A stretch of DNA of 22,960 nt from a virus: the IMG/VR virus record IMGVR_UViG_3300010148_000128, positions 1-22,960 of that record. The stretch is one strand, 5' to 3'. The translations under genes were made by a program, and so were the position numbers. Shown piece by piece: positions 8,445 to 21,716 of this stretch. The stretch's first letter is position 1. Each line of letters begins with the position of its first letter. Below the pieces are notes generated by a model that did not search any database, was not told where the DNA came from, and saw only the letters and a list, made by a program, of their open reading frames with translations.

Positions 8445-9017
8445 TTATTCTCCTTTCTCTTCATTAAATAATTTAAGTAACCTGTCTTTATCTATTTTAA
8501 ACCACTCGTTACTTTTCTTGTCACAGAATTGTTTTATATATCTGTGCATCTTTCTTTCTTCATCTGCAACATTTGTTACAGCTTTTTTATCAACAAGATA
8601 GTAGTCTTGAAAAGGACTACCTGTTTGATAATTTTTAAGTCTACTCTCGGCAGAGTTTACAGACATTCCTATTTTAAACCAACCTTCTTTTTCAAACTCA
8701 GGTCTAGTTGCTATGTACAATTCACCTTTGACGTTTTCATCTTTAGCCATTTCATCTAATTCATTGTGTGAATATGCATCATCAAGAGATTTATAATTAC
8801 CGGGTTTGTGAAGTGGATTAACTATTCTATTTTTGTAGTCTGAATATTTAGGTATAAACTTACCACCTACAAACATACGATTTGTATTTTTACGAGCATG
8901 AGTAACAACTCTCTCTCGATATGTGCCTGTGCTACTATAATACCACCACTCACCATCAACAAATCTTGCATTGTCCTTAGTATAGTTCTCTAGGTCTACT
9001 TTTCTTGCTTTTTTCAT
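8445..9017 (-). CDS. T5orf172 / GIY-YIG-like domain protein
   Basis: The protein has 190 residues. The C-terminal half matches the T5orf172/MUG113 branch of the GIY-YIG fold: GELYIATRP (residues 98-105), then WFKIGMSVNSAESRLKNYQ with a conserved Arg at 126, DEERKMHRYI with Glu at 153/154 and His at 158, and finally SNEWFKI around 169-175. Members are common in phages and are presumed DNA-binding or nuclease proteins. The N-terminal half (residues 1-95) is basic and aromatic (GEWWYYSSTGTYRERVV) and may bind nucleic acid, but I do not recognise it. Whether it is a homing-type endonuclease or a regulator cannot be told. A purine-rich GAAAGGAG precedes the start, downstream of the hairpin at 9057-9091. 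Confidence 0.8.
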   Translation of the reverse strand: MKKARKVDLENYTKDNARFVDGEWWYYSSTGTYRERVVTHARKNTNRMFVGGKFIPKYSDYKNRIVNPLHKPGNYKSLDDAYSHNELDEMAKDENVKGELYIATRPEFEKEGWFKIGMSVNSAESRLKNYQTGSPFQDYYLVDKKAVTNVADEERKMHRYIKQFCDKKSNEWFKIDKDRLLKLFNEEKGE

Positions 9018-18622: not shown

Positions 18623-19765
18623 TTAGTGGTTGTCAACATATTTTTTTCTTTCTTTTAGTGCAGAGTTAGCACTAGCATATGTATTTTTCATGTATGGCTT
18701 AACACTATTAGGGTTAGCATGACCTGTGACAGACATAATCTGACCCATAGGTACACCTGCTTCTACCATCTCTGTCGTTCCTGTCCTTCTAAAGTCCATT
18801 AACCATAGATTATCAGGTAGACCTGCCTTTCGCATTATACGTTTAGCCACCTGTGATATACGTTCTATGTTGTATGGAACATATTCCCCACTTCTATCTT
18901 TTGTATATGGTGCTACATATTTTTGAAAGCCAAAATCTTTTTCTTGTTCCACCAACATGTCAAGTAAATCCTCTTCAATAGGTAAACAAACTATAGAACG
19001 TCTTTTAGACTGTTGCAAATTTAACACACCTTTATCAAAATCGACATTAGACCACTCTAATAAACGCATATCACCTATCCTCTGACACCATTCATATGCC
19101 ATTTGTGATATTAATCCAACATTTCTATATTCAAAATCGGCATAGGCTACATCAAGAAATCTACGCATTTGTTCCTGTGTCCATACAACAGTTCTTTTGT
19201 GTGTGGACTTCATCTTAAAGGTCATAAATGGATTTGTTTCAGCATATCCCATTTCTGTTCCAAAAGAATACATTTTTTTGACTACGGCACAGATGTGGTT
19301 TGCCATAGATATGCCACGATTAAGCCACAGTTCATATAACTGTCGTGCAACTGCACCATTAAAATTTTTCAGCTTTATGTCTGATACTTTTTTATTTCGA
19401 TACATTGTTTCCATTGCAACTCGTAAAAAGTATTCATAATCTTTTTTAGTTTTAGTGCCTAATCTATTGAAATCATTAGATTTTTTATATTCGACAGACA
19501 AGCCTAGTAGTGTAGGAAACCTCTCTATAGATATGTTCTCCTCTAAATTAGAAATGTATTCGTCTATGGCATCATTAAACTCTTTAGCTTTCTGCCTTAC
19601 TTCTGACAAACTTTCTCCTAAATTAATACGTTGTACAATATTTGCATCAACATACTTTTGAGGTGGGTTATATCTATAGAAGGATTTACCACTAGCCCAA
19701 GTTTGTTGCACTACATATCTTGGCAACTTTTTGGGCTTTGGCACATTGACCGTAAAATTAGTCAT
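18623..19765 (-). CDS. int: Tyrosine recombinase / phage integrase
   Basis: The product is 380 residues from the ATG at 19765, which gives the ATGACTAA overlap type also seen at other junctions here; an in-frame ATG at 19789 is the alternative. In the longer numbering, residues 85-195 form the helical core-binding domain. The catalytic domain has R237 (CQRIGDMRLLEW), K262 (QQSKRR), R334 (MDFRRTGTTEM), H357 (VTGHANP) and the nucleophile Y366 (VKPYMK). The first His of the usual HxxR is Met331, a tolerated but less common change. The N terminus (PKPKKLPRYVVQQTW) may bind arm sites. It would integrate the phage at a host site. It lies inside the replication operon, upstream of primase. Confidence 0.92.
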   Translation of the reverse strand: MTNFTVNVPKPKKLPRYVVQQTWASGKSFYRYNPPQKYVDANIVQRINLGESLSEVRQKAKEFNDAIDEYISNLEENISIERFPTLLGLSVEYKKSNDFNRLGTKTKKDYEYFLRVAMETMYRNKKVSDIKLKNFNGAVARQLYELWLNRGISMANHICAVVKKMYSFGTEMGYAETNPFMTFKMKSTHKRTVVWTQEQMRRFLDVAYADFEYRNVGLISQMAYEWCQRIGDMRLLEWSNVDFDKGVLNLQQSKRRSIVCLPIEEDLLDMLVEQEKDFGFQKYVAPYTKDRSGEYVPYNIERISQVAKRIMRKAGLPDNLWLMDFRRTGTTEMVEAGVPMGQIMSVTGHANPNSVKPYMKNTYASANSALKERKKYVDNH

Positions 19766-20057
19766 GCATAGGTTTCCATGCAGTTTCATCTGACTCTAAC
19801 ACATAATCTGCATACCATTTTGCTGTATCACTATCAGGATTTTTCTGTGGAACAAACTTTAATGAATTATGCATATGATGTAGTAACTCATCTAACATAG
19901 ATACCTCTGACAATCGTATGTCATGACACTCAGAGATGTAATCTATTGTTTCTTTTAGCTTGTTATGTAATTGTAGAAACTTTAACCTTTGCTCCTCTGT
20001 AACAAGAATATCTTTCATATCTATATTAACCTTAAATTTACCGTTTGTATCTTTCAT
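19758..20057 (-). CDS. Hypothetical helical protein (99 aa)
   Basis: This 99-residue protein has no recognised domain. After a short N-terminal strand-like segment (GKFKVNIDMKDILV), most of it is predicted helix (EEQRLKFLQLHNKLKETIDYI; VSMLDELLHHMHNSL) with several His residues. The C terminus is DTAKWYADYVLESDETAWKPMHD. The start is supported by AAAGGAGTTAAT, where the AGG AGT TAA belongs to the end of the methyltransferase gene. The stop overlaps the integrase start by 8 bases. The position between methyltransferase and integrase might suggest an accessory or regulatory role, but no DNA-binding motif is evident. Confidence 0.65.
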   Translation of the reverse strand: MKDTNGKFKVNIDMKDILVTEEQRLKFLQLHNKLKETIDYISECHDIRLSEVSMLDELLHHMHNSLKFVPQKNPDSDTAKWYADYVLESDETAWKPMHD

Positions 20058-20058
20058 A

Positions 20059-21222
20059 TTAACTCCTTTCTGTTGTTTTTAATGCTTGTTGTCCACAAGA
20101 TATACCATCAAACATTGACATTACATCTCTTAAATCACCATCAATGCCCTTAAATATCTCATTGATGATAGATACTGTCCACCCATTGCCTATCGCTTTC
20201 ATACGATTAGACTTGGCTACAGGCATGTATGCTATTGACTTTTCTCCATCTTTTTGGTATCTACCCATAGATGTATAATCTCTAGGTAAAGTCTGTAATG
20301 ATTCCATTTCTGTAACCAATAACTTTCTCCATCTTAAATCATCTACAACTATGTTATCTTTTTGGATAGTGCTTAGACAATTCGTTTTATCATCTTGTCT
20401 AACTTCTATTTTTTCTGTGAAAGGTATTTCTAATTGGTTGTCTTTTCGTACACCAAACTTATCTAGTCTACGATTAACAATACGACCACCTTTAGGATTA
20501 AATGTGGCAACTTTAGGTTCTCTGTTCCCACCACCCATACTGTTTAAAGTGGGAGATTTCCCACTAGGTGAGTATACTCTTTTAAGTATATCATGACCTT
20601 TTATCTCAGCAGTTTCTCCTACTTGAACCATAGTTCTCTGCTTACGTTCTATACTGTTCCACCATACTGCACCATTATATCGTGCTGTTAGGCAATGTGA
20701 CTTACCATTTTTGTTAGTCATCAATGGATTGGCAATGCCATCTTCTTCTAGTATGTCACCTAAAACTATACCCTCGTCTTTAATTTTAGATGGGTCAAAT
20801 GGTATGTTTGTGATATACATTCTTACTCTATTCTGTCCACTTTTTAATGCACTATTGACAATGTGTACTTTAAAAGTATCACCTACGACATCTCGTATGG
20901 CATTGACCATAATGCTTTCATTCTCTTTGGACATTTTAACATTTTCAAGTAAGAAGTATTTAGGTTTGATTGCTTTGAGTGCATCAACGAATCTGTAGAA
21001 TAACTGTCCACTCTCTGCCTTGAAACCATCTCGTTTTCCTGCTACAGAGAATGATGTGCAAGGTGAACCTGCTAGTAGTAAATCTACATCACGATACTTA
21101 TCACTATAAACGTCAAGGTTATTTACATCACCTAGTTGTATAGTGCATGGGTGTTGGTATTGTGTTATTGCTATTGCATGTTTTTCTAATTCTGATGCAA
21201 AATAATTGTTATATTTAATCAT
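20059..21222 (-). CDS. Cytosine-C5 DNA methyltransferase, circularly permuted (motif I at the C terminus)
   Basis: The enzyme transfers a methyl group from S-adenosylmethionine to cytosine C5 in DNA. The product is 387 residues from the ATG at 21222, which has AGGAG well placed; an ATG six codons upstream has none. The protein opens with IKYNNYFASELEKHAIAITQ, which normally follows motif I. Then come motif IV (GSPCTSFS, catalytic C55), VI (LLENV, E93), VIII (QNRVRMY), a target-recognition region (~150-290), IX (LVTEMESLQTLPRDY) and X (AIGNGWTVSII). The cofactor-binding motif I, VMSMFDGISCG, appears only at residues 367-377, ten residues before the end. The two ends would join as the usual N terminus, so the gene looks circularly permuted and intact. 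It may protect phage DNA from restriction. Confidence 0.92.
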   Translation of the reverse strand: MIKYNNYFASELEKHAIAITQYQHPCTIQLGDVNNLDVYSDKYRDVDLLLAGSPCTSFSVAGKRDGFKAESGQLFYRFVDALKAIKPKYFLLENVKMSKENESIMVNAIRDVVGDTFKVHIVNSALKSGQNRVRMYITNIPFDPSKIKDEGIVLGDILEEDGIANPLMTNKNGKSHCLTARYNGAVWWNSIERKQRTMVQVGETAEIKGHDILKRVYSPSGKSPTLNSMGGGNREPKVATFNPKGGRIVNRRLDKFGVRKDNQLEIPFTEKIEVRQDDKTNCLSTIQKDNIVVDDLRWRKLLVTEMESLQTLPRDYTSMGRYQKDGEKSIAYMPVAKSNRMKAIGNGWTVSIINEIFKGIDGDLRDVMSMFDGISCGQQALKTTERS

Positions 21223-21230
21223 GTTATCTC

Positions 21231-21716
21231 CTATAACCATTGGGGTTTATCTGTGTACTTATATCTTGCAAACTTTAATTTGTCAACCCTATAAAAATTA
21301 CGATAGGCTTTTATCGGAAAAAATTCATCTGTTTTTAGTTCGTCATGTCCACTAAAACATTGTGGGTGTTTTGTGATACCTAACTCAGGTATAAACTTAG
21401 CACCTTCTCTTATATTGTACCTATGTTTAGATGCACCATGATTTTTACCATATCTGTAAGTATATTCTTCTAGCATAAAACAATAAAGAATATACGCAAA
21501 TATAAAATTATTTCTACTATGCATAGCCCACAATGTGCATGGGTGTTTCTGATGGACAGGCTTGTATAAGTTATGCTTTTCTGCATACTGTGGTGCATGA
21601 TGCCATAAAGCAGTACATAACATCTGTGACTCTTCTAATGGCATCTTGACTACATGTTGGTCACATAAAGATTTAGCAATCTTTTGTGGTGATTCTTCTA
21701 TAATAAATCTATTCAT
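21231..21716 (-). CDS. Conserved phage protein of the CDQHVVKM / EYTYRYGK type
   Basis: The protein has 161 residues and begins MNRFIIEESPQKIAKSLCDQ, followed by HVVKMPLEESQMLCTALW. It then has HQKHPCTLWAMHSRNNF, LEEYTYRYGKNHGASKHR and a C-terminal AYRNFYRVDKLKFARY and KYTDKPQWL. This pattern of conserved Cys, His, Trp and Tyr blocks recurs in proteins of many marine phages. As far as I recall, some are annotated as pyrimidine-dimer glycosylase-like, but I do not see a match to T4 endonuclease V, so no enzyme function is assigned. The start lies inside an 8-base overlap with the previous gene (ATGAATAG). The stop TAG forms part of the methyltransferase ribosome binding site. Confidence 0.8.
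   Translation of the reverse strand: MNRFIIEESPQKIAKSLCDQHVVKMPLEESQMLCTALWHHAPQYAEKHNLYKPVHQKHPCTLWAMHSRNNFIFAYILYCFMLEEYTYRYGKNHGASKHRYNIREGAKFIPELGITKHPQCFSGHDELKTDEFFPIKAYRNFYRVDKLKFARYKYTDKPQWL

Follow-up and report, generated by a model that had tools for sequence, protein, structure and literature searches.

The gene at positions 20,059 to 21,222 of a 22,960-nucleotide viral contig (IMG/VR record IMGVR_UViG_3300010148_000128, analysed over its full length and here called the window) very probably encodes a natural orphan C5-cytosine methyltransferase of a marine HMO-2011-type phage, permuted between motifs I and II, with an ordinary fold and a likely role in protecting phage DNA. That this phage protein is truly a circularly permuted C5-methyltransferase, as the first-pass annotation had proposed, is well supported by its recurrence in separate contigs, by purifying selection, by a conserved start with no motif I upstream and by a confident structure model.

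Artificial permutants of M.MpeI and M.SssI have been constructed, and 20,677 REBASE C5-methyltransferase entries were searched in the same study (Albert et al. 2018, PMC5944983). The survey yielded 27 natural permutants (5 known, including M.BssHII, and 22 new), all broken in the variable region, and was taken to mean that evolution favours permutation paths leaving both domains intact; permutants cut between motifs II and III, close to the SAM site, were considered possibly disadvantaged by weaker SAM binding (PMC5944983). The window enzyme shows in nature an arrangement that had been obtained in that work by construction only (PMC5944983), and our literature search, which was non-exhaustive and covered few subscription journals, gave no description of an enzyme that is naturally cut between motifs I and II.

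Gene start and motif order

The features of the gene, all on the minus strand, are as follows.

20059..21222 (-), permuted C5-cytosine DNA methyltransferase, 387 aa, motif order II-III-IV-VI-VIII-TRD-IX-X-I
21228..21232 (-), Shine-Dalgarno AGGAG of the methyltransferase, 5 nt before the ATG at 21220-21222
21190..21204 (-), motif II YFASE, aa 7-11, at the new N terminus (from translation and alignment)
21058..21069 (-), motif IV GSPC, aa 52-55, with catalytic Cys55, invariant or nearly so in 84 relatives
20938..20946 (-), motif VI ENV, aa 93-95, invariant in 84 relatives
20821..20835 (-), motif VIII QNRVR, aa 130-134, R132 and R134 invariant in 84 relatives
20338..20730 (-), target recognition region (TRD), approximately aa 165-295, an exchangeable cassette by its identity pattern
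20182..20190 (-), motif X GNG, aa 345-347 (GNGW), G345 and N346 invariant in 84 relatives
20062..20127 (-), relocated N-terminal element, now C-terminal: strand aa 366-370, motif I, helix aa 376-383
20092-20112 (-), motif I FDGISCG, aa 371-377, the sole motif I of the protein
20063..20067 (-), AGGAG Shine-Dalgarno of the next gene (ORF 19758-20057), inside the final methyltransferase codons

The N terminus, MIKYNNYFASELEKHAI, corresponds to motif II of the family, with motif III (GD) next in the N-terminal part, while the C-terminal end, ...DLRDVMSMFDGISCGQQALKTTERS, is motif I. The first-pass annotation had described motif I as absent from the N terminus and present ten residues before the C terminus, and this agrees with its single occurrence at aa 371-377 and with a PF00145 match that starts at profile position 18. 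Its motif order, IV-VI-VIII-TRD-IX-X-I, is correct as far as it goes and left out motifs II (YFASE) and III (GD) at the N terminus. The match to PF00145 is strong (E = 1.5e-33, 117 bits vs a cut-off of 22) and spans profile positions 18-322, so that motif I at the front of the profile is missing from it; PHROG 116 (DNA methyltransferase) also matches, with E = 2e-48. When 81 canonical N-terminal segments with motif I were made into a profile HMM, the window protein was hit with E = 6e-6, and 2000 shuffles reached E = 0.5 at best. Judged from sequence, the protein belongs to PF00145 by its profile match, catalytic Pro-Cys, ENV, QxRxR and GNG, and by motif I in its C-terminal place. The break between motifs I and II with motif I last fits the class of permutant that we take to be type A of the earlier scheme (PMC5944983). 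Annotation that relies on linear motif order hides such permuted enzymes.

The start codon had been placed right at the permutation point on account of its ribosome binding site, and this assignment is borne out: the chain begins at motif II, AGGAG precedes the ATG by 5 nt, and close relatives are conserved from the start Met onward and variable in the in-frame residues upstream of it. Going upstream in frame from the chosen ATG, a stop is reached after only 8 codons, which leaves no room in that frame for an N-terminal motif I. Motif I was also sought in all three frames upstream of the window gene and was found in none, which removes a frameshift as an alternative explanation.

Recurrence and selection in viral contigs

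A search of viral contigs gave ten relatives of 87-98% identity (loci L001-L010), all with the same motif order. After a query with the C-terminal end, this group, here group A, comprised approximately 18 independent IMG/VR contigs of 59-98% identity, L167-L170 being a divergent subset. A further group of approximately 17 contigs, group B, is about 52% identical and has the same motif order. Its proteins have YYASEIDKY at the N terminus and SLFDGYSGFQQAL or similar at the C terminus, and the final glycine of canonical motif I is absent from them (FDGYSGF or FDGYSGC).

The window is a metagenomic virus record, and scaffolds of this kind can be imperfect. Near 14670-14680 of contig IMGVR_UViG_3300029787_000464 (L005, L172) the last 26 codons are repeated downstream of the gene, across an apparent gap of approximately 10 bases, which is probably a scaffolding artefact. 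One might accordingly suppose an assembly or sequencing error that conceals a true gene with an N-terminal motif I, the very outcome that the first-pass annotation had named as its refutation. Such an error is extremely improbable given that some 18 contigs from different samples are concordant, that the start codon is conserved and that motif I occurs upstream in no frame.

An automated count of motif order over the fetched loci, in which overlapping loci of one contig are counted repeatedly, placed motif I N-terminally in 259 ORF records and C-terminally in 49, with 20 undetermined; motif I at both ends occurred in 0 of the 328 classified ORF records. Among the best matches listed from 50,697 deposited phage genomes, none covered the relocated segment in the manner of a permutant. 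Croceibacter phage P2559Y, whose match seemed to span the whole query, was rejected as a permutant since it carries a tandem pair of canonical methyltransferase genes, of which the downstream one starts 1 bp after the end of the other. Pelagibacter phages HTVC309P and HTVC134P were likewise rejected, both being canonical.

The relocated segment is under purifying selection of about the same strength as the remainder of the protein, with dN/dS of approximately 0.06 over all group A pairs vs 0.07 for the body in close members; in group A the C-terminal segment shows many synonymous and few non-synonymous differences. These data bear on the suggestion that the gene encodes a degenerating or inactive methyltransferase without a SAM loop, whose C-terminal motif I-like stretch is a functionless remnant or a neighbouring fragment. 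The poor solubility of artificial permutants cut at this place (PMC5944983) would agree with such a loss of function. The suggestion is very unlikely, however, in view of this low dN/dS, of the conservation of the C-terminal motif in all contigs of groups A and B, of the exchange of the TRD within the permuted group and of the catalytic residues, which are all intact; in the alignment the permuted proteins retain every catalytic and DNA-contact motif.

Predicted fold and comparison with known permutants

An AlphaFold model of the window protein reached pLDDT 77 and pTM 0.73. The input consisted of 84 sequences together with unaltered motif I fragments of canonical relatives, entered as separate sequences, which MAFFT placed on the C terminus of the query and which thereby deepened the motif I columns. 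A first model from 12 permuted sequences only (pLDDT 36) was discarded. Both chain ends are modelled with high confidence, the C-terminal one as a strand (366-370) and a helix (376-383); the TRD part of the model is poor. In structure comparisons residues 1-364 could be superposed on DNMT3B with Z 24, on residues 30-323 of M.HhaI with Z 21.7 and on residues 31-391 of M.MpeI with Z 20.1. Since the core aligns from residue 30 of M.HhaI and residue 31 of M.MpeI, what is missing at the front of the model is precisely the first strand and the SAM loop. These are elements that the C-terminal strand and helix may supply, the strand taking the beta-1 position in the arrangement suggested by the model; the structure searches are order-dependent and neither confirm nor exclude this docking. 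Of the structure check that had been proposed at first reading, the superposing core and the C-terminal strand and helix were obtained, and motif I may enter the SAM pocket.

Translation of the permuted enzyme would accordingly open with strand 2 of the SAM-binding domain. Strand 1 and the SAM-binding loop (motif I) would follow at the end of synthesis and insert between strands 2 and 4, completing an ordinary methyltransferase fold.

Alternatively, a second chain could complete the SAM site, motif I being given or received by a partner protein or within a domain-swapped dimer. Fragments of C5-methyltransferases split between motifs do complement each other in trans (PMC5944983), and one long contig, IMGVR_UViG_3300029448_000003 (110,914 bp; L009 and L106), carries a permuted and a canonical C5-methyltransferase gene together. 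Against this, the C-terminal strand and helix form within a single chain in the model, and 13 of 15 permuted viral records contain no PF00145 gene besides the permuted one, although most of these records are fragments. The two exceptions are the contig of L009, with its extra canonical gene, and that of L281, where two blocks belong to one permuted gene. Completion by a second chain is therefore very unlikely, and completion within the chain is preferred. The contig with both genes is about twice the usual size of an HMO-2011-type phage.

Of the artificial permutants, cp35M.MpeI showed activity in vivo but was poorly soluble (PMC5944983). Its break lies structurally within approximately 4 residues of that in the window enzyme, and in both motif I is C-terminal, but cp35M.MpeI is man-made from a CG-specific mycoplasma enzyme while the phage enzyme is natural, conserved and under selection. 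M.BssHII, M.Alw26I, M2.Eco31IC, M.Esp3I and M2.BsaI are, like the window enzyme, natural circularly permuted C5-methyltransferases (PMC5944983). Enzymes of the M.BssHII type belong mostly to bacterial restriction-modification systems and are cut in the variable region beside the TRD, leaving both domains whole (PMC5944983), whereas the phage enzyme is cut within its catalytic domain, next to the SAM loop. The parallel with M.BssHII drawn in the first-pass annotation therefore applies to the natural occurrence of the permutation and not to the place of the break, which is the variable region in the one and between motifs I and II in the other. A natural rearranged motif order is also found in the plant DRM methyltransferases, where motifs VI-X precede I-V; these enzymes are eukaryotic and their break is a different one.

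Origins, cassette exchange and phage setting

Canonical phage relatives (L011, the L036 type, CRP-603 gp10 and HTVC309P gp4) share with the window enzyme a homologous core and an early gene neighbourhood and differ from it in their N-terminal motif I. The TRD cassette is common to the window enzyme and its closest canonical relatives. The TRD of the window enzyme is approximately 72-75% identical to those of the canonical L011 and L028 and of group B, compared with only about 45% in motifs II-VIII; for L011 the values are about 74% and 47%. L167-L169 carry a different TRD within the same permuted frame. By these identity patterns the TRD behaves as an exchangeable specificity cassette across permuted and canonical forms. 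The existence of permuted enzymes and canonical relatives with nearly the same cassette makes the cost or benefit of permutation directly measurable.

In trees, groups A and B each form a clade among canonical relatives. When the TRD is included they lie together on one side of a branch (73/73), and when it is left out they are apart in the best tree, with monophyly not rejected (p = 0.16).

A second natural topology, with the break between motifs III and IV, was encountered when genomes were scanned with a permuted alignment, a search of the kind that had been recommended at first reading for marine phages. A 283-aa ORF on the chromosome of Petroclostridium sp. X23 (L278:2498-3346), with a TTG start preceded by GAGGAG, has the order IV-VI-VIII-IX-X-I-II-III, and the same order was found in five viral contigs, L281 (2935-3870), L380, L383, L384 and L386, each with an ATG start, MIDLLLGGSPCQ or MVDLLLGGSPCQ. 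Pfam reports the blocks of L281 in permuted order, profile positions 55-320 and then 3-65. Among the matches inspected from 291 sampled genomes of the class of Petroclostridium there was no further permutant of this kind. A single clade uniting groups A and B with the III/IV permutants was rejected (AU p = 0.0006), which implies at least two origins of permutation. Breaks between motifs I and II, and separately between III and IV, in natural enzymes that are conserved and under selection contradict the generalisation that both domains are left intact (PMC5944983).

Head-to-tail arrays of 2-4 canonical genes, abutting or overlapping, are present in L382:450-3900, L381:1340-3927 and L081:2938-5074, with three or four overlapping methyltransferase genes in L381 and L382. 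Such tandem genes in phages are a possible substrate for permutation by duplication. The group B motif I precedes a tail (e.g. LDNPIWDERWTK or EWVEMYNNNKENV) that is also present in canonical relatives and that holds the translation-initiation region of the next gene; the final codons of group A likewise encode the Shine-Dalgarno of the gene downstream. The motif I segment has thus been placed immediately before an initiation region. Because motif I of group B stands upstream of a canonical-type tail, a duplication would have to be followed in that group by a further loss of internal sequence, unless the segment was transferred directly. Tandem duplication, put forward in the first-pass annotation, is a plausible route, and a form with motif I at both ends is the one missing from the motif-order count; the other proposal, selection for altered regulation, is not supported. 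Taken together, it is likely that phages repeatedly permute C5-methyltransferases by breaking the catalytic domain, in at least two natural topologies and probably from head-to-tail tandem genes.

The window is a fragment that can be assigned to an HMO-2011-type phage by its DNA polymerase, approximately 61% identical to those of HMO-2011, CRP-345 and CRP-1, and by its early module and the position of its integrase. The order methyltransferase-integrase-primase-helicase-polymerase is that of CRP-603, whose methyltransferase, a canonical C5 enzyme, lies upstream of the other four genes within the same early region. Canonical, group A and group B loci share a hydrolase, a glycosylase-like gene, an integrase and a primase, the exact slot of the methyltransferase being variable. 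No restriction endonuclease was recognised adjoining the window methyltransferase gene, which makes an orphan protective methyltransferase its most likely function. We infer that the enzyme is an active methyltransferase and that a cytosine target on the phage DNA would be methylated early in infection, giving protection from host restriction. The neighbouring ORF at 21231-21716 (-) resembles a pyrimidine dimer DNA glycosylase (PHROG 624, with PF03013 just below its cut-off), and that at 8445-9017 (-) has a T5orf172 / MUG113 domain, which we take to be of the GIY-YIG type.
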